Assembly (NCBI GenBank): GCA_023251805.1
Contig: JAHEYB010000003.1
Span: 46,249-110,248, forward strand
Length of the DNA: 64,000 bases
Direction: 5' to 3'
Origin: Bacteroidota bacterium
GTDB taxonomy: Bacteria; Bacteroidota; Bacteroidia; 2-12-FULL-35-15
The number at the start of each line of letters is the position of its first letter. The first letter of the stretch is position 1. Shown here piece after piece: positions 3,927-16,080 of this stretch. A model generated the notes under the pieces. It had not been told where the DNA came from and searched no databases. It worked only from the letters and a program-made list of their open reading frames with translations. The translations under genes were made by a program, and so were the position numbers.

Positions 3927-5201
3927 TTGCTATCACTCGACCAAATATCAGAAAGCTTTCGGATTGAAATCGATAAAGTTCCAGACTCAATAGAAAAAGT
4001 AAAAATAATTATTGAGTTCACGAACAATTATTTTGATACGATTGGGCCAAGATGCCTGCCATTTTTAAATGAAGCATTAGCCCTTTCAAAAAAACTCAAC
4101 TACAAATCTGGGGAAGTACTTTGTTCATGCAACTTACTATTTTCAAGATACACTAGCAATGACGTATCCAACACTGAAGTAGAAATGAATCGAATAGATT
4201 TAATGCTGAATGAAATCAAGGATGAACCATTTGAATATTCTTACGCACTTAGTTTATTTGCATACTTGCATTGGTTTAGGGGGGAATTCGACAAAGCATT
4301 TGACAGAGCATTTGATGCGCTAAAATTGGTTCATCAACTTAAAGGATTTAAAGAATCGGGCTGGATTTATTATGCACTCGGAGTCTTTTATTTTGACATG
4401 AACGACTTACCGAATTCAAAAATTTATTATTCCAAAGCTGCAGATGCTTTTCGAGAAAACAACTACGACTATGGTGTTGCAAGAGCAATAAACGGAATTG
4501 CGTCCATTAAAATAAAACAAGCAAAAGCTTCAGAAGCAGTACCTCATTTAGAAGTTGCCATCCAAACCTATCGTTTAGGTAATTGTTATGCAGGTTTATC
4601 AAGAGCATTAAACGATTTGGCTTTAGTGCAAAAAGCAGAGAAAAATTATTCCGAAGCGATTAAACTTTTCAATGAAAGTCTAATAATCAGAAAAGAAACA
4701 AATAATATTCAAGGTTTGATTACCACTTTTACTGAACTTGGAGAAATCTATCAATCTTTGGATGATTCAAAAAATGCTTTGTACAATTTAACTGAAGGAA
4801 TTAAATTATCTGAATCAGTTGGTGCAAAATACAAAAGTATTCGTTTGCATAAACTTCTTTCTGACGCTTACAAAAAATTAGATAACATACAATTAGCTTT
4901 TGAGCATTTCGAAAAATTTCATGAGCTTAAATCGCTTGTATTAGGTGAAGAGTCGGCAAACAATATCCGAAAAATGCAAACCAAATTTGAAACTGAAAAA
5001 TCTGAAAAGGAAGCAGAAATAGAACGATTAAAAAATGTTGAACTAAAAAGTGCTTACGATTTAATATCTGAGCAAAAAATGGTACTAGAGGAAAAACAAA
5101 AAGAAATCCTTGATTCCATTCACTATGCCAAACGCATTCAAAGCTCACTCCTACCTACAGACACTTATATTGAAAAGTGTCTGAATAAATATAAAAAATG
5201 A
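3927..5201 (+). CDS. Split-sensor protein 1: cytoplasmic TPR protein with common tail, no output domain
   Basis: 424 residues from a TTG start two bases after the paaZ stop. No ATG exists between the upstream in-frame stop (3867) and this TTG. Unlike its neighbours it has no signal peptide and no membrane segment. Residues ~1-330 are helical TPR-like repeats (about 40 residues each). A coiled coil follows (KFETEKSEKEAEIERLK), then the shared tail EKQKEILDSIHYAKRIQSSL and LLPTDTYIEK, where the protein stops. In the fused proteins of this locus the same tail leads into a PP2C/SpoIIE phosphatase. Its stop overlaps the next start (ATGA), suggesting coupled translation. Signal and partner are unknown; a shorter product from a downstream ATG is possible. 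Confidence 0.8.
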   Translation: MLSLDQISESFRIEIDKVPDSIEKVKIIIEFTNNYFDTIGPRCLPFLNEALALSKKLNYKSGEVLCSCNLLFSRYTSNDVSNTEVEMNRIDLMLNEIKDEPFEYSYALSLFAYLHWFRGEFDKAFDRAFDALKLVHQLKGFKESGWIYYALGVFYFDMNDLPNSKIYYSKAADAFRENNYDYGVARAINGIASIKIKQAKASEAVPHLEVAIQTYRLGNCYAGLSRALNDLALVQKAEKNYSEAIKLFNESLIIRKETNNIQGLITTFTELGEIYQSLDDSKNALYNLTEGIKLSESVGAKYKSIRLHKLLSDAYKKLDNIQLAFEHFEKFHELKSLVLGEESANNIRKMQTKFETEKSEKEAEIERLKNVELKSAYDLISEQKMVLEEKQKEILDSIHYAKRIQSSLLPTDTYIEKCLNKYKK

Positions 5202-6700
5202 AAAAAAGTATTGCTTTCATACTGCTTTCATTATTTTTTCTTGACATTATAGCTCAAGAAAGTCCTATTGTTGATTCACTTAAAACAAGAATTAAAAAAT
5301 GTAAGACCGATAGCGCACGCTGCTATGAATTGGATGTATTAGCAAAAGAATATATGGATGTAACTCCCGATTCGGGCATCATTTATGCAAACAAATCTCT
5401 TTTCCTTGCAAAAAAAATAAAAAAATATCAATATCAAGTCGATGCCCTAGTTACTCTTGGAATTGTATACCGCGAAAGAGGTGAATACAATAGAGCCATC
5501 GACTCTCTTTTAATCGGGCTAGAAATTGCTAATAAAAATAAACTTGATAATTACTCTTATAAACGCTTATATACAACGCTAAATCTAGCTTATACCGAAC
5601 AAGGGAATTATACTGTTGGCATTGAATATGGATTTAAAGCAATGAAGATTATAGAACAGGAAGGCGACACACTTGCAATGGCCATGTCAAATAATAATAT
5701 TGCAAATACGTACTTTTTAATAAAACAATATCCCAAAGCAATGAAACATTATACCATTGCTTTAAATTATGCAACAGCTCTAAAAAATACATATGGACAA
5801 AGCTTACTAACTGGCAATATCGGAAGCGTTTATTATGAAATGGAAAAATTGGATAGCGCTAAAAAATATTTTGATGAATTTTTGAAACTAACAGAAGAAG
5901 TTGGTGATGTTCAGGGGCAAGGCTTGGCAATGGCCAATTTGGGAAGCTACTACCAAAAAATAAATCAAGGGAAAATTGCTATCGAATACCTTCAAAAAGC
6001 AGAAAAAATATTTGCTGAAATGAAAATGCAGCCGAATTTGGGCGATACATACTACAATTTAGCAACCTGTTATTTGTATCTGAAAGAATATAGAAAATCG
6101 GAATCATATGCGAAATTGTCCTTGGATATTGCCAACAAAATAGGAAGCTATCCTCACAAAGAACAAGCACATCTATCCTTAAAAAATGTATATGAAAAAT
6201 TAAACGATACCGACAAAGCCTATTACCATTACAAAGAATACATTGCAGCGAGAGATTCTATTTTCAACGAAAAAAATAAAAAAGACCAATTTAAAGCTGA
6301 GTTGGTTTATGAATACGATAAAAAAAAGTATGCTGATTCATTGAATCAAGCAGTTTTTGCAAAAATAAAAAATCAAGAATTAAGTATTGAAAAGGAAAAA
6401 ACTCAAACACAAAAAACATTCACTTATATCGCAATTGCAGCCAGCTGTCTATTGCTGATTGTTGCGCTTTATATTTTTATAAGCTACAAGAATAAGCAAA
6501 AGGCCAATAGAATCATTTCTGAACAGAAATATCAAGTGGAACTACAAAAAGAAGAAATAGAATTTCAGAAAACGGTATTGGAAACAAAAAATAAAGCAGT
6601 AACCGATTCTATTTATTATGCTAGTCGCATTCAAAAATCCTTGCTACCTACCGAAAAGTATATCGAAAGGAACTTATCCGAATTAAAAAAAGGTAAATAA
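5198..6700 (+). CDS. Split-sensor protein 2: secreted-side TPR, one membrane segment, common tail
   Basis: 500 residues. Signal peptide at 1-20 (ending DIIAQ), then about eight TPR-like units at ~40-360 (for example NIANTYFLIKQYPKAMKHY), a charged helix, one transmembrane segment at ~406-430 (YIAIAASCLLLIVALYIF), a cytoplasmic coiled coil, and the tail AVTDSIYYASRIQKSLLPTE with KYIERNLSELKKGK at the end. The layout puts the TPR domain in the periplasm and the tail in the cytoplasm. No phosphatase or kinase domain follows. The start overlaps the previous stop by ATGA. It is the most divergent tail of the set (AVTDS instead of EILDS). Confidence 0.85.
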   Translation: MKKSIAFILLSLFFLDIIAQESPIVDSLKTRIKKCKTDSARCYELDVLAKEYMDVTPDSGIIYANKSLFLAKKIKKYQYQVDALVTLGIVYRERGEYNRAIDSLLIGLEIANKNKLDNYSYKRLYTTLNLAYTEQGNYTVGIEYGFKAMKIIEQEGDTLAMAMSNNNIANTYFLIKQYPKAMKHYTIALNYATALKNTYGQSLLTGNIGSVYYEMEKLDSAKKYFDEFLKLTEEVGDVQGQGLAMANLGSYYQKINQGKIAIEYLQKAEKIFAEMKMQPNLGDTYYNLATCYLYLKEYRKSESYAKLSLDIANKIGSYPHKEQAHLSLKNVYEKLNDTDKAYYHYKEYIAARDSIFNEKNKKDQFKAELVYEYDKKKYADSLNQAVFAKIKNQELSIEKEKTQTQKTFTYIAIAASCLLLIVALYIFISYKNKQKANRIISEQKYQVELQKEEIEFQKTVLETKNKAVTDSIYYASRIQKSLLPTEKYIERNLSELKKGK

Positions 6701-6716
6701 ATATTTGTATCAAAAG

Positions 6717-8213
6717 ATGAAAAAAGTTTTATTATTCTGTTATTTGTTATGCACTCAGTTGCTGTTTGCACAAACAAATATTGGACTAGATACTATCAAC
6801 AGATATGATGCAGTGAAAAGTAAAACTGGAGTATGGCTGGAGGAGGTTGCGCTTGGAATGCGAATTGGAAAGTATGAATCAGGGAAAAGAACAGGCATAT
6901 GGGAAATGTATTCAAATACAGGGAGTTTAATCGGAACCGAAGCATTTATCAATGGAAAAAAAGTAAAAACAAAGGCACTAAAAGCAAAATATAGTGACAA
7001 ATCCTTTCAAAGAAAACTTGAGCTGGTAGATTCCATAACAATAGTTGCTTTGTTTAACAATCAAAAAGACATCCACCAAAAAATATCGGATATAAAACCT
7101 GTAGAAGGAGTAACAACAACAATCTATAGTATAAAACATGGTGTCGTTTCCAAAGAAGCTACATTTAATTCAGGAAATAGTACTGAACAAAAGTTCACAT
7201 TACAAAAAAACACCTACTCTTTAATTACATTTGAAAAACAAGGTTATATTTTGCAAAAAGTACTAATCGATTTCAAAAATATCGATGGATTTCCATCTTA
7301 TATATTACCATGGAAAAAAACAATACCAATAAGGCTAAACGAAAAAGTGAATACAGAGCTCTATTCTCTAAGTTCAATCTTAAATAAACCCAATCAAAAA
7401 TTAAATTTTTCTTTTTTTGATGGTCTTTACGGAGATGCCCGATATAGTTCTTATATCCAGTTTGTTGTAAATAACCTAAAAGCAACTACCAAGGATTCAC
7501 TAATTCAGTATACTGACAACAAGGTTAATCTCACCTTAATAAACGCAAAATCTTCGCTGATAGAAGCAAAATCATCATTAGAATCAAAAGAAAAACAAAT
7601 TAATCAATTAGAGGAAGATAATCTTGTGAAACAAAATGAATTGCTAAAAAAAGAAATGCTTTCACAAGCTAAACAGAAAGAAATTGAACTATTAAACAAG
7701 GATAAAGCATTGCAAAGTTTATACCTAATACAAAATCAGCAAGCGCTCAAGCAAAAGGAGCTGGAGGTTAATAAAAATGAGCAAGAATTAAAAATTGCTA
7801 ACCAGTCAAAAAAAATAAATGAAGAAGAACTGGCTAGAAAAAACTTGGAATTAGGTCATCAAATTGAACTTAAAAATCAGCAAGAAAAGGAATTGCTCCT
7901 TCAGACAAATTTGAAAAATAGTTTGCAAAAGGAAGCTAAGCAAGAGCAAATCATTAAATGGATATTTGGCGGCCTGGCGGTTTTGTTTATTTTGTTTGGA
8001 GCATTTTCATTTAATCGCTTTTTGATAACCAGAAAACAGAAAAAAATTATTGAGTTTAAAAGCATAGAAACAGAAGAACAAAAGGCGATTATTGAAGAGA
8101 AACAAAAAGAAATTTTAGCTAGTATTCACTATGCAAAGCGGATTCAACAATCCTTACTTCCTACTGAAAAGTATATTGAAAGAAATTTAAACGAATTAAA
8201 AAAGGAGAAATGA
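6717..8213 (+). CDS. Split-sensor protein 3: MORN-like and coiled-coil sensor with common tail
   Basis: 498 residues from the ATG at 6717; the track start at 6705 is a TTG ahead of a standard signal peptide (MKKVLLFCYLLCTQLLFAQ). This member has no TPR repeats. Residues ~25-90 resemble MORN/YwqK-type repeats (KRTGIWEMYSNTGSLIGTE). A beta-rich domain follows at ~100-270, then a long coiled coil at ~275-405 rich in Glu, Lys and Gln, a membrane segment at ~411-435 (GGLAVLFILFGAFSF), and the tail EKQKEILASIHYAKRIQQSL with LLPTEKYIERNLNELKKEK. Sharing the tail while having an unrelated sensing domain shows that the tail is the conserved module. Its stop overlaps the next start. Confidence 0.85.
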   Translation: MKKVLLFCYLLCTQLLFAQTNIGLDTINRYDAVKSKTGVWLEEVALGMRIGKYESGKRTGIWEMYSNTGSLIGTEAFINGKKVKTKALKAKYSDKSFQRKLELVDSITIVALFNNQKDIHQKISDIKPVEGVTTTIYSIKHGVVSKEATFNSGNSTEQKFTLQKNTYSLITFEKQGYILQKVLIDFKNIDGFPSYILPWKKTIPIRLNEKVNTELYSLSSILNKPNQKLNFSFFDGLYGDARYSSYIQFVVNNLKATTKDSLIQYTDNKVNLTLINAKSSLIEAKSSLESKEKQINQLEEDNLVKQNELLKKEMLSQAKQKEIELLNKDKALQSLYLIQNQQALKQKELEVNKNEQELKIANQSKKINEEELARKNLELGHQIELKNQQEKELLLQTNLKNSLQKEAKQEQIIKWIFGGLAVLFILFGAFSFNRFLITRKQKKIIEFKSIETEEQKAIIEEKQKEILASIHYAKRIQQSLLPTEKYIERNLNELKKEK

Positions 8214-9646
8214 AAAAAAATATTTTCTTTTCCATATTAATTGTTTTGTTGTCAAATATCACTTTTGCTCAAAAAAATAAGCGCGACTCCCTCCTTGCAG
8301 TTATTAAAATAACTTCTGTCGATACTAATAAAATAAAAATGCTCACAGCACTTTGTACTGAATATCGAATAAGTGGTGAAATGGACAAAGCTCTTCAATA
8401 CGGAAACGAAGGATTAAAATTAGCAGAAGAACTAAATTGGAAAAAAGGAGAGGCGGAAGCACTTACAAACATTGGTATTGTGCATTGGAGTACTGGAAAT
8501 TACGCCCAAGCATTAAAAAAGTATTTTGATGCATTAAAAATAGATGAAGAACTTGGCGATGAAATCAGAATTGCTACTTTATATGGAAACATCGGATTAG
8601 TGCATTGGAATCAAGGCGATTACCCGAAATCACTTACTTACTATTTTAAATCATTAAAAATAAATGAACGATTAAATAACAAGCAAGCCCAAGCAAAAAA
8701 TATAGCAAATATTGGTAACGTTTATTGGAACCAAGGTGATTTAGAGCAAGCGTTGAATTATTACTTTAAAGCTTTAAAAATTGCTGAAGAAATTGGTGAC
8801 AAAAATGGTGTATGTATCGATTTAGGAAATATCGGACTAGTATACTGGAACCAAGGAAATAATGAAGCTGCCCTAAATTACTATTTTAAAGCTTTAGCCT
8901 TGGCGGAACAATTGGATACTAAAAGTTTAATTTCTGCATGGAAAAGCAATATTGGAAATGCTTACAACTCAATGCATGAATACGATAAAGCTCTCCAGTA
9001 TTATTTTGAATCTTTAAAAACAGATGAAGAATTAGGTGACCAAGCTGGAGTTGCCACAACACTCGGAAATGTTGGCTTACTTTATTTTGACCAAAATAAA
9101 TTCCCCGAATCCAAGAAATACCTTTTAAAAGCATTGGACCTTTCCACTGCAATTGGAGCCATCTATATTCAAAAAGATCATCATCAAAGTCTAAGTAAAT
9201 TATTTGCTAAAACAAACAATTATGAATTAGCACTTATCCATTATAAAAAATACATCGCTGCCAACGACACACTGGTAAACGAAGAGAATGTAAAAAAAAC
9301 TGTGCAGTCACAAATGCAATACGAATTCGATAAGAAAGAATTACAAACCAAAGCTGAGCAGGATAAAAAAGACATACTTGATGATGAAGCCAAAAAGAAA
9401 CAACAAATTATTATTTATTTTATCACCTTCGGGCTGTTTTTGGTGCTCATTCTTGCCTCTGTTATTTTTAGAAGCCTTAAAATAAATCAACAAAAAAATA
9501 AAATTATTTCACAGCAAAAGAATGCGGTGGAAGAAAAACAAAAAGAAATATTGGACAGTATACTATATGCAAGAAGATTGCAAAACTCTTTACTACCCAC
9601 TGAAAAATACATTTCTCAAAGTTTCAATCGTTTAATAAACAGATGA
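8210..9646 (+). CDS. Split-sensor protein 4: periplasmic TPR, membrane segment, common tail
   Basis: 478 residues. Signal peptide at 1-20 (NITFAQ). About seven very regular 40-residue TPR units at ~60-320, each with a NIGLVYWNQGD-like and a YYFKALKIAEE-like helix, resembling kinesin-light-chain TPRs. A charged helix with SQMQYEFDKKE precedes the membrane segment at ~397-420 (FGLFLVLILASVIF). It ends with EKQKEILDSILYARRLQNSL and LLPTEKYISQSF, with no output domain. Both ends overlap neighbours by ATGA (8210-8213 and 9643-9646), so it is translationally coupled to the genes before and after. Confidence 0.88.
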   Translation: MKKNIFFSILIVLLSNITFAQKNKRDSLLAVIKITSVDTNKIKMLTALCTEYRISGEMDKALQYGNEGLKLAEELNWKKGEAEALTNIGIVHWSTGNYAQALKKYFDALKIDEELGDEIRIATLYGNIGLVHWNQGDYPKSLTYYFKSLKINERLNNKQAQAKNIANIGNVYWNQGDLEQALNYYFKALKIAEEIGDKNGVCIDLGNIGLVYWNQGNNEAALNYYFKALALAEQLDTKSLISAWKSNIGNAYNSMHEYDKALQYYFESLKTDEELGDQAGVATTLGNVGLLYFDQNKFPESKKYLLKALDLSTAIGAIYIQKDHHQSLSKLFAKTNNYELALIHYKKYIAANDTLVNEENVKKTVQSQMQYEFDKKELQTKAEQDKKDILDDEAKKKQQIIIYFITFGLFLVLILASVIFRSLKINQQKNKIISQQKNAVEEKQKEILDSILYARRLQNSLLPTEKYISQSFNRLINR

Positions 9647-11085
9647 AAATAAAATTTTATATACTTATTTTGTTTTTATTTACTATCCAGTTATGTTTCC
9701 CCCAACAGAAAAAGGTGGATTCACTATTACTTGCACTTAAAGCTACCAAAATTGACACTAACAGAGTAAATGTTTTAAATGAGTTGGCTGAAAAAGCTTG
9801 GGGAATGAGCAAATACGATAAGGCCATTCAGTATTCCAAACAATGTTTGGTTTTATCAGACAAATTAGGATATAAAAAAGGTATAGCAAAAGCTTATAAT
9901 ACAATTGGGCTCGTATTAAATTTGCAAGGATATTATGAGGAAGCACTACAAAATCATCAAAAAGCTTTAGCAATCAAAAAACAGTTGGGCGATAAAAAAA
10001 GTTTGTCCATTACATATAATAATATTGGCTTAGTGAATTTTAATCAAGGGAATTATATCGAGGCAGTCAAAAATCATCTTGAGTCTTTAAAATTGAAAGA
10101 AGAAATTGAAGATAAAAAAGGAATTGCGTCCTCTTATATAAATATTGGACTGGTATATAAGATGCAAAACAATCACAAAGATGCTTTAAAAAATTATTTT
10201 GCCGCCTTAAAAATTAATCAAGAAATTGATAACAAAAAATCAATGGCTACTTGCTACAATAATATTGCAAATATTTATTCACTGCAAAAAAAATTCAGTG
10301 ATGCAATACATTATTACTCACTTTCCTTGACAATCAGAAAAGAAATGAATGATAGTAGAGGGATTGGAGGGACTTACTATAATATTGGGTTTATTAATGA
10401 GCAACAGCAAGAGTATAGAAAAGCAATAGACAATTATTTAGCTTCCCTTGAGATTTGTCAAGAAACGGGCGACCTTGAGGGAATTGCAGCATCCTACAAT
10501 TCCTTAGGAAAAATGAGTGCTGAAATACATGAAATTTCGAAATCAAAACAATATCTAAACAAAGGATTGGAAATTTCTAAAAAAATAGGCAGTAAGGAAG
10601 ATATTAAGCAGAGTTACCATGGACTATATCTGACAGATAGTGCTACCGGGGATTTTAAAGCTGCTTACAACAACTATCAAAAGTACATTGGCTACCGCGA
10701 TAGCCTTAAAAATGATGAAAACACGAAAAAACTAGTTCAGTCGCAAATGCAATACGAATTTGATAAAAAAGAGGCTCAAACCCAAGCCGATCAGGAGAAA
10801 AAAGATGCATTAGCTTCAGAAGGTAAGAAAAAAAGGCAAATCACGCTGTACGCTATTAGTGCGGGTTTATTTCTCGTATTAATCTTATCATTAGTGATTT
10901 TCAGAAGTTTACAAACGAATAAAAAGAAAAATAAGATTATATCACTCCAAAAGGACCTTATGGAAGAAAAACAAACGGAAATACTCGACTCCATTAGGTA
11001 CGCAAAGAGAATACAGTACTCATTATTACCTACCGAAAAATATATTGCGAAAAGTTTGAATAGATTAAAAAATGATATAAATTAG
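9643..11085 (+). CDS. Split-sensor protein 5: periplasmic TPR, membrane segment, common tail
   Basis: 480 residues. Signal peptide at 1-20 (LCFPQ). Seven or so TPR units at ~45-330 (YNNIGLVNFNQGNYIEAVKN), the same SQMQYEFDKKE stalk as sensor 4, a membrane segment at ~400-424 (ISAGLFLVLILSLVIFRSL), and the tail EKQTEILDSIRYAKRIQYSL with LLPTEKYIAKSLNRLK. Sensors 4 and 5 are close paralogues in stalk and membrane segment but differ in their TPR faces. The stop lies 4 bases before the start of the free phosphatase gene, so the two should be made from one message. Confidence 0.88.
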   Translation: MKIKFYILILFLFTIQLCFPQQKKVDSLLLALKATKIDTNRVNVLNELAEKAWGMSKYDKAIQYSKQCLVLSDKLGYKKGIAKAYNTIGLVLNLQGYYEEALQNHQKALAIKKQLGDKKSLSITYNNIGLVNFNQGNYIEAVKNHLESLKLKEEIEDKKGIASSYINIGLVYKMQNNHKDALKNYFAALKINQEIDNKKSMATCYNNIANIYSLQKKFSDAIHYYSLSLTIRKEMNDSRGIGGTYYNIGFINEQQQEYRKAIDNYLASLEICQETGDLEGIAASYNSLGKMSAEIHEISKSKQYLNKGLEISKKIGSKEDIKQSYHGLYLTDSATGDFKAAYNNYQKYIGYRDSLKNDENTKKLVQSQMQYEFDKKEAQTQADQEKKDALASEGKKKRQITLYAISAGLFLVLILSLVIFRSLQTNKKKNKIISLQKDLMEEKQTEILDSIRYAKRIQYSLLPTEKYIAKSLNRLKNDIN

Positions 11086-11089
11086 CCAC

Positions 11090-11803
11090 ATGGAAACAAC
11101 TGCAACTGAAACTAAGAACTTTTTCATCCTTTACAAACCTAAAGATATTGTAAGTGGTGATTTTTACCATGCTATTGCTCACAAGCCAACAGGTAGCAAA
11201 ACAGAATTGTTTTATATGTGTACAGCGGATTGTACCGGACACGGAGTTCCGGGAGCTCTCATGAGTATGGTGGGGATTTCTCATTTAAATGAATCGATTA
11301 TTGAAAAAAATCTCATTCACCCAAATGATATCTTGGATAATATGAGAAAAGGTATCATTGCCTCTTTAAACCCTGAAGGCAGCGAAGAAGAAAGTAAAGA
11401 CGGTATGGATTGCGTACTTTGTGCATATGATTTCGAAAATATGAAATTGGAATTTGCTGCCGCTAATAATCCACTTTGGCTTATCAGAAATGGTGAAATG
11501 CAAGAGTTTAAGCCCGACAAAATGCCTGTAGGTATGTACCACTCTAAAACTGCTCCTTTTTCTTTGCAAACAATTGATTTGAAAAAAGGTGATATCGTTT
11601 ATACTTTTACCGATGGTTATGCCGATCAATTTGGTGGTGATAAAGGTAAAAAATACAAATACAAACAATTACAAGAAAAATTGCTACAAATTAAAGATTT
11701 ACCCCTTAGCGATCAAAAAGGAATTCTTGACAAAGAATTTGAAACTTGGAAAGGTAATTTAGAACAAGTGGATGACGTGCTTATCATTGGAGTAAAAATC
11801 TAA
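11090..11803 (+). CDS. Free-standing SpoIIE/PP2C-type serine phosphatase
   Basis: 237 residues that consist of the phosphatase domain only. Metal-binding aspartates are at Asp24 (DIVSGDFYH) and Asp47 (TADCTGHGVPG); others lie in KDGMDCVLC, TFTDGYADQFGG and the C-terminal EQVDDVLIIG. The family removes phosphate from Ser/Thr, usually on STAS-domain antagonists in partner-switching pathways. The protein begins exactly where the phosphatase starts in the two fused proteins downstream (KPKDIVxGDFY). It has no sensor, membrane segment or linker helix of its own. Five upstream genes supply that linker as their C-terminal tails, so I infer that it is controlled by them in trans. It is the last gene before a terminator. 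Confidence 0.93.
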   Translation: METTATETKNFFILYKPKDIVSGDFYHAIAHKPTGSKTELFYMCTADCTGHGVPGALMSMVGISHLNESIIEKNLIHPNDILDNMRKGIIASLNPEGSEEESKDGMDCVLCAYDFENMKLEFAAANNPLWLIRNGEMQEFKPDKMPVGMYHSKTAPFSLQTIDLKKGDIVYTFTDGYADQFGGDKGKKYKYKQLQEKLLQIKDLPLSDQKGILDKEFETWKGNLEQVDDVLIIGVKI

Positions 11804-11816
11804 ATTGATACAAAAG

Positions 11817-11851
11817 AAAAGCCCTCTTCGATTTCTCGGGGAGGGCTTTTT
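11817..11851 (+). terminator. Terminator closing the split-sensor operon
   Basis: AAAAGCCCTC and GAGGGCTTTT form a 10-bp stem followed by T residues, 14 bases after the phosphatase stop codon. It separates the split operon from the two fused sensor-phosphatase genes. Confidence 0.85.
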
Positions 11852-11876: not shown

Positions 11877-14000
11877 ATGAAAAATCGGTTTCTCATTTTT
11901 TCTCTTTTTATTTTATCGCATCCCAGTTTTTCTGTGGGACAACAAATTGCTATTGATTCTCTCAAAACACTTCTCAAAACAGAAAAATACGATACAACAA
12001 AAGCTAATATTTTGCTTATTATAGCAGAAACCTCCAGCATTGACACCATTTATCGTGATTACAATCAACAAGCACTAGCTTTAGCCGAAAAAAATATTCC
12101 AATTTCAACCGGAAAAGAACTCAAAGCATTTTTAAGAATAAAAGCAAGTGCATATAATAATATTGGATACGATGAGACAACTCGTGGAAACTTAACCACT
12201 GCTCTTAACTATTATAATCAAAGCCTAAGCATTGAAAAAGAAATAAATAATGTTGCAGATATAGCATATGTACTAAACAACATTGCCGACATCTACGAAA
12301 CACAAGGAAATATTTCAGCAGCAATTAAATATTATGGTGAAAGCTTGAAAATGCATGAAAAAATAAATAATCAAAGGGGCATTGCTCAAGCTTACAATAA
12401 TTTTGGATTTATTTATTGTAATCAAGGTGATTTAGAAAAAGCACTAGATTATTATCAAAAAAGTTTTAAAATAAAAAAAGAACTGAACGACCAATCCGGA
12501 ATGGCTGTTTCGCTTAGTAATATAGGTTATGTATACATGCTTCAAAAACTGGATTACAAGGCTATGTCGTATTATCTGCTAGCACTTAAATCGGCAAAAG
12601 AAATAAATGATAAATTACGAATGGCATTGGTATATAGTAATATTGGAGGAATTTTAGAAAAACAAGGGAATCAAAACGGGGCACTTGAAAACTATACCAA
12701 AGGTTTAAAATTAAGTGAAGAAATTGAAGATGTAGACGGAATTTCTCATTACATGTCTAACCTTGGAGCACTTTATCTTAAAAGAGGTAAAACAGATAGC
12801 GCATTGTATTATGGCAACCAAGCAATGAAATATGCAAAAAGTATTGGTTCTCCCAAATTAATTTGTTTGTCATCCGAATTGCTAAAAAATGCTTACAAAG
12901 AAACTGGAAACACTGCAAAAGCGCTAGAATACTTCGAGCTCTTTTTTAAAATGAATGATAGTATCAATAACGAAGAAACTAAAAAAGCTACCTTCAAACA
13001 ACAACTTAGTTACGAGTACGACAAAAAAGAAACACTCGCTAAGGCGGAACAAGAAAAAAAAGATGTGGAAAATGCTTCTGCAATAAAACGACAACGAATT
13101 CTTACTTGGTCGATTGGCATCGGCCTGTTCATGGTTCTCGTTTTTTCTATTTTTCTTTATAAACGATTTTTGCTCACTCAAAAACAAAAGAAAATTATAG
13201 AGGAGCAAAAAATGATTGTAGATGCGAAAAATACCGAGATACTTGATTCTATTACTTATGCGAAACGTTTACAAGATGCCATTTTACCTCCGATAAAAAT
13301 AATAAAACAGCAATTTCCTCAATCCTTTGTTTTATTCAAACCGAAAGATATAGTAGCCGGTGATTTTTATTGGTTTGAGCAAATTAACGACCTTACTTTT
13401 TTTGCCGCTGCTGATTGCACTGGCCATGGCGTTCCGGGTGCTATGGTAAGTGTTGTTTGCTCAAATGCACTCAACAGAGCAGTGAAAGAGTTCGGGATTA
13501 CCGAACCTGGAAAAATTTTGGATAAAGTCAGAGAATTAGTTGTGGAAACTTTTGTCCGCAAGGACTCCTATGGAGAAAAAAGCGAAACAGATGTAAAAGA
13601 CGGAATGGACATCTCTATTTGTAGCTTCAATAAAAAAACAAATCAATTGAAATGGTCAGGCGCTAACAATCCCCTTTGGCTTATTAGAAATGCAACATTA
13701 ATTGAATACAAAGCCAACAAACAAGCAATAGGAAAAGTAGATGCTCCTATGCCGTTTACCACTCATGCTATAGACGTCCAAAAAAATGATTCCATTTATC
13801 TTTTCACAGACGGTTTCAGCGATCAATTTGGTGGGCCCAAAGGTAAAAAATTTAAGTATGCCCAATTTAAAGATGCATTAATATCCATCCAAATAATCGC
13901 AACCGAAACACAGGCGCTAGAACTAAACAAAACAATAGAAAACTGGAAAGGCCAACTAGAACAGGTTGACGATATTCTAGTGATTGGTATTAAGCTCTAA
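11877..14000 (+). CDS. Fused TPR sensor, membrane segment and SpoIIE/PP2C phosphatase 1
   Basis: 707 residues. Signal peptide (ending near SVGQQ), TPR units at ~80-340, stalk, membrane segment at ~403-424 (SIGIGLFMVLVFSIFLY), linker tail NTEILDSITYAKRLQDAILP, and a complete phosphatase from ~480 (KPKDIVAGDFYW with Asp496, ADCTGHGVPG, KDGMDIS, FTDGFSDQFGG, EQVDDILVIG). It is the assembled version of what the upstream operon encodes in pieces, although the linker reads AILPP where the split proteins have SLLPT. It follows the operon terminator, so it probably has its own promoter; none is obvious in the short gap. Confidence 0.93.
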   Translation: MKNRFLIFSLFILSHPSFSVGQQIAIDSLKTLLKTEKYDTTKANILLIIAETSSIDTIYRDYNQQALALAEKNIPISTGKELKAFLRIKASAYNNIGYDETTRGNLTTALNYYNQSLSIEKEINNVADIAYVLNNIADIYETQGNISAAIKYYGESLKMHEKINNQRGIAQAYNNFGFIYCNQGDLEKALDYYQKSFKIKKELNDQSGMAVSLSNIGYVYMLQKLDYKAMSYYLLALKSAKEINDKLRMALVYSNIGGILEKQGNQNGALENYTKGLKLSEEIEDVDGISHYMSNLGALYLKRGKTDSALYYGNQAMKYAKSIGSPKLICLSSELLKNAYKETGNTAKALEYFELFFKMNDSINNEETKKATFKQQLSYEYDKKETLAKAEQEKKDVENASAIKRQRILTWSIGIGLFMVLVFSIFLYKRFLLTQKQKKIIEEQKMIVDAKNTEILDSITYAKRLQDAILPPIKIIKQQFPQSFVLFKPKDIVAGDFYWFEQINDLTFFAAADCTGHGVPGAMVSVVCSNALNRAVKEFGITEPGKILDKVRELVVETFVRKDSYGEKSETDVKDGMDISICSFNKKTNQLKWSGANNPLWLIRNATLIEYKANKQAIGKVDAPMPFTTHAIDVQKNDSIYLFTDGFSDQFGGPKGKKFKYAQFKDALISIQIIATETQALELNKTIENWKGQLEQVDDILVIGIKL

Positions 14001-14070: not shown

Positions 14071-16080
14071 ATGAAAAAACTTTTACTCCTATTTCTTATA
14101 ATTTTTACTCAATTAATTTTCAATATTTGCAGTTCGCAAAATATTGATTCGCTTTGGGGTGTCTATCGTAATGTCAAAATTCCCGATAGCATTCGGCTAG
14201 AAGCATTTAATGATATTGCTTGGAGCTTACTTTATACAAATCCCGACTCCACCTATATTTTAGGACATGAAGAATTGGAGATGTCCAGAGCAAAACATCT
14301 TAAAAAATGTGAAACGAATGCATTAAATACAATCGGTGCATCTTATCAAGTTCGAGGAAATTATATCATGGCCGTTGATTACTATCAACAATGTTTAAAA
14401 ATAAGAGAAGAACAAAACGACTTACGCGGTGTTGCAAAATCATTGGCAAATATCGGAAGTATTTATATTAACATCGAAAATTTTGACAAAGCACTCGAAT
14501 ATCAACTCCGAAGTTTAAAACTTGCAGAGCAACTTGGGAATAAAGAGAGTGCAGCCAGTTCCCTTAATAACATTGGAATCATCTACCATAAGTTTTCAAA
14601 ATTTGAAAAAGCCCTTTACTATAACCAAAGAAGCTTAAAGCTTTATAATGAGTTGGGCGACAAACAAGGAGTTGCTGCTTCATATGCAAATATTGGAAAC
14701 ATCTATTCTTCTTTAAAAGATTATGAAAAAGCGAAGGAGTACCAAACAAAAAGTAATTCCATAAGTATGGAAATTGGTGATAAGCGCGGAGAATCAACAT
14801 CATTAACTGCTTTAGGTATTTCTCGTTTGGCACAAAAAAAATATTCGGAAGCATTAAAAGATTTGATTCGTGCCCAGCAAATTTCAGTTGAGATAAAAGA
14901 CCTTGCTTCTGAAAAAGAAGCTACAAGTGGTTTATATGAAACCTATAAAGCAATGGGCGATAATCTTAAAGCCTTACAAAGTTACGAACGATTTTCTGTT
15001 TTAAAAGACAGCATTTTAAAAGATGATAACCAAAGAAAAATTGCAAATAAAGAATTGGAATATCAATACGAGAAAAAAGTTGCGGCCGACAGTGTTAAAA
15101 ATGAAGAAGAGCGAAAAGTAACACATGCCTTAATTCTTGCAAAAAATGCACAAATTGAACAGGACAATACACAAAAATGGGCCTTATACGGTGGTTTGTG
15201 TTTACTATTGGTTTTCGGTGGATTGATGTACAATAGATTTAGGATTACTATTAAGCAAAAAAATATTATCGAAATTCAAAAACAAAAAACGGAAAAACAA
15301 AAAGAAATTATTGAAGAAAAACAAAAAGAAATTCTTGCTTCTATCTCCTACGCAAAACGTTTGCAAGAAGCAATTTTGCCTCCACACAGTTTAATTAAAC
15401 AACATCTTCCAAATTCCTTTTTCTTTTACAAACCAAAAGACATTGTAGCTGGCGATTTTTATTGGCTCGAAACCGATCAAAAAAATAGCGATGTTTTGTT
15501 GTTTGCAGCCGCAGATTGTACCGGACACGGAGTTCCTGGAGCAATGGTAAGCGTTGTTTGCTCTAACGCTTTAAATAGGACAGTAAATGAGTTTAACATC
15601 ACAAATCCAGGTGATATTTTAGATAAAGTAAGTGAGTTGGTTGTTGAAACTTTTGAAAAAAGTGAAAGTGAAGTAAACGATGGAATGGATATTTCCTTAT
15701 GTAATTTTAATAAGAATACATTGGAATTAAAATGGAGTGGCGCAAACAATCCTCTTTGGATTATCAGAAATAAAACATTAATTGAATACAAACCAAATAA
15801 ACAACCAATTGGAAAAGTGGATGCCCCTACTCCATTTATTACTCAAACTATTCAATTACAAAAAAATGATACTATCTATATTTTTACTGACGGTTATGCC
15901 GACCAATTTGGTGGAGAGAAAGGCAAAAAATTTAAGCTTTCGAGTTTGCAAGATTTATTTTTAGAAAAATGTCAGCTTTCTATGGATCAACAATTAATTG
16001 AAGTAGAAGCCACACTAAAAAACTGGCAAGGCAGTATCGACCAAGTGGACGACATATTAATAATCGGTATAAAGATATGA
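14071..16080 (+). CDS. Fused TPR sensor, membrane segment and SpoIIE/PP2C phosphatase 2
   Basis: 669 residues from the ATG at 14071; the track start at 14050 is a TTG ahead of the true signal peptide (MKKLLLLFLIIFTQL). TPR units at ~75-300, stalk, membrane segment at ~368-390 (YGGLCLLLVFGGLMYNRF), linker EKQKEILASISYAKRLQEAI with ILPP, then the phosphatase (KPKDIVAGDFYW with Asp462, ADCTGHGVPG, NDGMDIS, FTDGYADQFGG, QVDDILIIG). The cytoplasmic linker of split sensor 3 is nearly identical to this one up to the phosphatase. No partner-switch kinase or STAS protein lies nearby. Confidence 0.93.
   Translation: MKKLLLLFLIIFTQLIFNICSSQNIDSLWGVYRNVKIPDSIRLEAFNDIAWSLLYTNPDSTYILGHEELEMSRAKHLKKCETNALNTIGASYQVRGNYIMAVDYYQQCLKIREEQNDLRGVAKSLANIGSIYINIENFDKALEYQLRSLKLAEQLGNKESAASSLNNIGIIYHKFSKFEKALYYNQRSLKLYNELGDKQGVAASYANIGNIYSSLKDYEKAKEYQTKSNSISMEIGDKRGESTSLTALGISRLAQKKYSEALKDLIRAQQISVEIKDLASEKEATSGLYETYKAMGDNLKALQSYERFSVLKDSILKDDNQRKIANKELEYQYEKKVAADSVKNEEERKVTHALILAKNAQIEQDNTQKWALYGGLCLLLVFGGLMYNRFRITIKQKNIIEIQKQKTEKQKEIIEEKQKEILASISYAKRLQEAILPPHSLIKQHLPNSFFFYKPKDIVAGDFYWLETDQKNSDVLLFAAADCTGHGVPGAMVSVVCSNALNRTVNEFNITNPGDILDKVSELVVETFEKSESEVNDGMDISLCNFNKNTLELKWSGANNPLWIIRNKTLIEYKPNKQPIGKVDAPTPFITQTIQLQKNDTIYIFTDGYADQFGGEKGKKFKLSSLQDLFLEKCQLSMDQQLIEVEATLKNWQGSIDQVDDILIIGIKI

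Follow-up and report, generated by a model that had tools for sequence, protein, structure and literature searches.

Chemoreceptors combine variable input domains with a constant tip, and act on one output enzyme, CheA, a histidine kinase that works with CheW in arrays. In the PPM phosphatase RsbU, a linker dimerizes the phosphatase via switch helices and thereby activates it, and the sensors attached to such linkers are thought to be exchangeable (PMC12143880). The phosphatase domain of SiaA from the Pseudomonas aeruginosa SiaABCD system (PDB 6K4E) forms a dimer through helices 1–3 (PMC7647112). The locus described here lies in a 64,000-nucleotide stretch of DNA from a Bacteroidota bacterium (the window), and centers on a gene, S3, whose product carries a sensor-type architecture but ends in a short cytoplasmic tail. 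S3 probably belongs to a large set of non-catalytic sensors in a split receptor-phosphatase, in which many sensors would serve one enzyme by docking it on their tails. A split many-to-one PPM receptor system of this kind was not found in the published literature that was searched, which comprised open-licence papers.

Anatomy of S3 and its transcription unit

The S3 open reading frame runs from an ATG at 6717 to a stop at 8213 and specifies a product of 498 aa (Table 1). Searches of Pfam and NCBIfam yielded neither a TPR nor any other family match in S3, even when Pfam hits with E up to 10 were considered. This result bears out the sequence-only reading that S3 lacks TPRs; the four sensor neighbors and the two fused proteins F1 and F2 are TPR-rich. 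The Pfam search also gave no PF07228 match in S3, the chain of which stops ahead of the catalytic domain. The same reading had proposed MORN-like repeats and a long coiled coil. The repeats are supported through relatives but not by a direct match: MORN_2 (PF07661) did not match S3 itself, yet the MORN-like part is ~40% identical to MORN_2-array proteins (E about 1e-8), and the arrays in S3-matching relatives gave strong PF07661 matches (2e-45 for L167 and 2e-19 for L170). The coiled coil was recovered as a coiled-coil-like stretch from composition and repeat pattern. For the S3 input, where the reading had placed a beta-rich domain as well, an AlphaFold model built from the single sequence had a mean pLDDT of 40 and was set aside.

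In a sister genome (G007, L033), the S3 input domain recurs as a direct fusion to a phosphatase, with 24% identity across the input. The same input is thus used in both formats, tail-only in S3 and phosphatase-fused in L033, and this fusion supports the modular exchange that had been suggested for the locus.

Table 1. Positions of the genes, S3 segments and terminator in the window
Feature	Positions	Strand	Basis
S1, soluble TPR sensor, same tail as S3	3927..5201	+	Pfam TPR, tail match
S2, TPR sensor, same tail as S3	5198..6700	+	Pfam, tail; 4-base overlap with S1
S3, sensor, no catalytic domain, no TPR	6717..8213	+	ORF and translation; no Pfam/NCBIfam family
S3 signal peptide, aa 1–19, MKKVLLFCYLLCTQLLFAQ	6717..6773	+	hydropathy
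S3 MORN-like repeats, aa about 34–83	6816..6965	+	similarity to MORN_2 array proteins
S3 long coiled-coil-like stretch preceding membrane helix, aa about 265–400	7509..7916	+	composition, repeat pattern
S3 single membrane helix, aa about 411–438	7947..8030	+	hydropathy
S3 tail, aa 455–498	8079..8210	+	alignments, conservation, homology to 6K4E N-terminal helical part
S4, TPR sensor, same tail as S3	8210..9646	+	Pfam, tail; 4-base overlap with S3
S5, TPR sensor, same tail as S3	9643..11085	+	Pfam, tail; 4-base overlap with S4
PP, solo SpoIIE/PPM catalytic domain, 237 aa, without tail helix	11090..11803	+	PF07228 5.8e-19
Intrinsic terminator ending the S1-S5-PP unit	11816..11851	+	stem-loop prediction
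F1, one chain: TPR-membrane helix-linker-tail-SpoIIE	11877..14000	+	Pfam; fused-type tail; separate unit beyond terminator
F2, one chain: TPR-membrane helix-linker-tail-SpoIIE	14071..16080	+	Pfam; AlphaFold pLDDT 90.6, best PDB match 6K4E

S1 to S5 and PP (3927–11803) are six plus-strand genes joined by 4-base overlaps or separated by gaps of 4–16 bases. A strong intrinsic terminator follows 12 bases past the PP stop codon. Its 16-bp stem and 4-base loop lead into a T-rich run, and it scores −24.7 kcal/mol with a z of −5.1. From the gene spacing and the terminator we conclude that S1-S5-PP constitutes one transcription unit; the fused F1 and F2 genes are located past the terminator that ends it. 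S1 combines TPRs and the tail without a signal peptide or membrane helix, indicating that the tail serves a soluble sensor as well.

The tail and the solo catalytic gene

The S3 tail was compared with those of its operon neighbors, partners that were picked by position rather than by sequence. Identity amounted to 25–29 of 40 residues with the four TPR sensors, and to 16 and 22 of 40 with F1 and F2. Forty-residue windows across aa 1–400 of S3, including the coiled coil, shared 7–13 of 40 residues with the neighbors, equivalent to the level of shuffled sequences (mean 9.3). BLASTP with the S3 C-terminal region gave E values of 4.7e-23 to F2 (14071) and 3e-15 to S1 (3927). The linker (aa 431–475) was closest to F2, and the last ~25 residues were of a tail-only type absent from F2. 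The earlier claim that the tail is nearly the same as in the TPR members and in the fused protein at 14071 therefore held for the TPR sensors and, as regards the fused protein, for the linker but not for these last residues.

In 165 tail-only sensors, the tail averaged 2.77 bits per column versus 1.12 for the coiled coil and membrane stretch ahead of it; a tail profile was used to find these sensors and raises their apparent tail conservation, a bias from which the positional comparison in the window is free. Across 76 orthologue pairs, identity was 69% in the tail, 61% in the coiled coil, 56% in the linker, 54% in the membrane helix and 47% in the input. The tail exceeded the coiled coil in 57 of the 76 pairs (p 3e-6), although by a modest margin. 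The comparison of substitution rates that had been suggested was carried out as amino-acid identity instead of dN/dS because synonymous sites were saturated (pS about 0.75–0.8), and the tail was more conserved than the coiled coil by both measures. Thus the tail, and not the input, is what is kept constant, as the sequence-only reading had maintained.

The residues P-T-E-K-Y-I...L (tail offsets 13–18 and 25) are conserved in the tail-only sensors and far less so in the fused proteins. A TEKYI..L..L motif is common to the tail-only sensors, while the fused phosphatases lack it and their tails end in AILPP...I or similar. The tail is best explained as an interface to a common partner and not simply as a linker open to exchange. 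In some lineages (L113, L114, L115, L116, L117 and L122), ALLTSxxYIERN or a similar segment replaces SLLPTEKYI in the tail, a variant in which tail and enzyme may possibly be changing together.

Judged by alignment, the tail corresponds to the linker of a SpoIIE/PPM phosphatase domain together with its first helix or helices, apparently cut where the catalytic domain should begin. In the fused proteins, the tail is followed by ...YAKRLQEAILPPHSLIKQHLPNSFFFYKPKDIVAGDFYW, the phosphatase start. S3 ends with ...YAKRIQQSLLPTEKYIERNLNELKKEK and a stop codon, and PP begins with METTATETKNFFILYKPKDIVSGDFYH; PP and its 47 orthologues all begin at the first strand of the catalytic domain. Because the tail stops before this strand and PP starts there, we conclude that the S3 tail and PP are complementary halves. 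The initial reading was thus right as to a constant tail but incomplete, having missed both the origin of the tail as the front part of a phosphatase and the separate catalytic gene.

PP scored 69.2 bits against PF07228 (cut-off 25), which places it in the SpoIIE/PPM family. It carries the metal-binding aspartates and the DxxGHG, TDG and DD motifs, equivalent to SiaA residues (PMC7647112), and its metal site (D24, D47/G50, D175/G176 and D228/D229) is conserved in at least 97% of the 47 orthologues and the window copy. In the AlphaFold model of the F2 C-terminus (pLDDT 90.6), the tail comprised helices 3–44 and 48–54, with the catalytic part starting from strand 58. The fused C-terminus matched 6K4E, the tail helix included. 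At E≤0.001 this entry was the sole PDB sequence match of F2 (4e-28), and it was the best fold match as well (TM 0.91 on target). From the alignment and the traced residues, helix 1 of 6K4E was identified as the tail helix. By analogy, the S3 tail would be the counterpart of the SiaA/RsbU helix in the activity-controlling dimer interface. Residues specific to the solo enzymes were enriched in the two switch helices (8/20, p 0.01).

Occurrence of solo enzymes and tail-only sensors

Among the 36 genomes of the window's genus, 10 contain one solo enzyme each (72–100% identical), the remaining matches being fused and at most 65% identical. These same 10 genomes carry 2–32 tail-only sensors each, with 32 in the window's genome. 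In a class-wide set of 395 genomes, 24 had a solo enzyme, and none had more than one. Nineteen genomes, all of them among these 24, contained tail-only sensors at E≤1e-20, and none of the 371 others did (Fisher 3.7e-28, a test that counts genomes without phylogenetic correction, kinship being addressed only by the enzyme tree). The other five enzyme-containing genomes had weaker-scoring tail-only sensors, bringing the total to 24 of 24; the looser sensor cut-off was applied to enzyme-free genomes within the window's genus only. In the tree of the enzymes with their fused relatives, the solo enzymes fell on one side of one branch (support 66), and their co-occurrence with the sensors may partly reflect shared descent. 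A fused protein in G423 (L212:6708-10412) is 63–64% identical to the solo enzyme in its catalytic part, which ranks it with the nearest fused relatives.

A scan of named genomes recovered 46 complete solo enzymes and one truncated at the edge of its contig. Their genomes are labeled Bacteroidota, except for one record labeled Saccharibacteria that is presumably mis-binned. All 38 of the scanned enzyme-containing genomes that were searched gave tail matches, with up to 87 per genome when fused tails are counted in. A tail-only sensor lies ~10 bases upstream of the solo enzyme in many genomes, and in some the enzyme adjoins no sensor. Counter to the pairing, two genomes of the window's genus had tail-only genes and no solo enzyme that could be found. 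One of them (G003) has 29 tail-only sensors, and its matching cluster, which adjoins the same neighboring gene as the cluster in the window, breaks off within the second sensor, where contig C3 ends. The other (G026) has a single isolated 83-aa fragment (contig C30, L155:7712-) in which the tail is well preserved, perhaps a relic of loss.

Several sensors were found run together in one frame, with five tails in 2412 aa (L204:2817-10055, G037), four tails in 2085 aa (L205:4341-10598, G041), and two tails in each of three further frames (L206:2464-5343, L207:4021-6906 and L208:4466-7417). In these frames each tail passes directly into the next signal peptide with no start codon between them. Such sensors might be separated by signal peptidase, or they may be multi-pass chains.

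Proposed mechanism, alternatives and known systems

In the proposed split receptor-phosphatase, a variable input, MORN-like repeats plus coiled coil in S3 and mostly TPRs elsewhere, would read a signal, mostly outside the inner membrane. A sensor dimer would display its two tails as a crossing coiled coil, on which two PP catalytic subunits would dock, thereby completing a dimer interface in which the switch helices lie. Tail geometry would then shift with the sensor state, such that docked PP is rendered active or inactive. S1, which has no membrane helix, would act likewise from the cytoplasm, and dozens of sensors could feed one enzyme. The likely substrate of PP would be a phosphoprotein of the SiaC type, with a SiaB-type protein as its kinase. 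Elsewhere in the window's genome, SiaB-like (DUF6272) and SiaC-like genes are adjacent to each other near two fused SpoIIE proteins (G000 contig C74, L230:4258-5194), and SiaC is present in all 24 solo-enzyme genomes but in 213 of 395 overall, such that it is uninformative alone as a pathway marker. SiaC is nevertheless a plausible PP substrate because the SiaB-SiaC pair is in the genome and SiaC accompanies every solo enzyme of the class set.

An alternative is that the tail-only sensors target fused phosphatases (F1, F2 and ~30 others), tuning or poisoning them through mixed coiled coils, and that the solo enzyme is unrelated to the sensors. The abundance of fused phosphatases in the window's genome (35 SpoIIE matches) fits this explanation, as does the S3 linker, which is nearest to one neighbor at 28–29 of 40 residues, F2 by BLASTP. 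However, genomes that are rich in fused phosphatases and lack the solo enzyme also lack tail-only sensors (e.g. G018 and G001), conservation of the TEKYI motif does not extend to fused tails, and the terminator divides the sensors from F1 and F2; we regard this explanation as unlikely. If the tail instead bound a different common partner, for example a scaffold, and the solo enzyme merely co-traveled, this would be in line with a tail-only C-terminal motif that is new relative to fused tails and with the indirect case for tail-enzyme binding. Yet the homology of the tail is to the phosphatase domain itself, in its N-terminal helical part, exactly the part that the solo enzyme is without, and the enzyme and sensors have a common transcription unit and genome distribution, which leaves such a partner quite improbable.

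Within the split arrangement itself the logic could be the opposite, with a solo enzyme that is active alone and is sequestered or inhibited by the sensors via the tail. Although sequence does not fix the sign of regulation, coiled-coil formation by the RsbU linker is activating (PMC12143880), and we consider this sub-form very unlikely. Each tail-only gene resembles a fused protein cut at one place, and the 83-aa fragment of G026 could be taken for a remnant, so that the tail-only genes might be decaying or mis-assembled leftovers of fused phosphatases. This possibility is exceedingly remote, as the tail-only genes have uniform, conserved ends, in many cases the next gene starts at once or overlaps without any phosphatase remnant, tails are more conserved than other sensor parts, and many independent assemblies agree. 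Decay, frameshift or assembly artefact was accordingly rejected given the uniform ends in many genomes.

If the split receptor-phosphatase is correct, it would explain proteins otherwise annotated only as TPR or hypothetical, 32 in the window's genome and as many as several dozen in related ones, as receptors of one phosphatase. The published idea of an exchangeable coiled-coil linker would also become directly testable, because the enzyme could be supplied with the linker as a separate piece or left without it, and the question arises how one enzyme, fed by dozens of sensors, keeps their signals separate or integrates them. For several Bacteroidota lineages, the chances seem evenly balanced that tens of envelope sensors either compete for one detached PPM catalytic subunit or control it jointly, in an array resembling that of chemoreceptors and CheA.

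Among known proteins, the fused TPR-SpoIIE proteins of Bacteroidota such as F1 and F2 have the same layout and the same linker and tail, with the catalytic domain attached; they differ in a tail end without TEKYI..L..L and are present with or without the solo enzyme. SiaA, with RsbU the closest known counterpart, resembles the present system in having its PPM domain after the same helix motif (QKKIGDSLDYASLIQRAILP versus QKEILASIHYAKRIQQSLLP), in its dimer through helices 1–3, and in its SiaB and SiaC partners, the genes for which have adjacent counterparts in the window's genome. In SiaA a single chain includes the sensor, whereas here the sensor and helix are apart from the catalytic core and the sensors are many. 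PP and F2 reached 127 and 157 bits against the SiaA profile NF038263 (cut-off 700) and over its C-terminal part only, which leaves both outside that family. In RsbU and RsbP, a helical linker likewise connects the sensor with the PPM domain, but it is covalent to the phosphatase, and RsbT and RsbQ bind the linker rather than supply it; the RsbU-type combination of linker/helix 0 and PPM domain in the same chain is found in F1 and F2 but not in the S3-PP pair. Chemoreceptors share with the proposed system the use of many receptors for one enzyme and differ in their histidine kinase/CheW arrays, and no sequence kinship with them is claimed.
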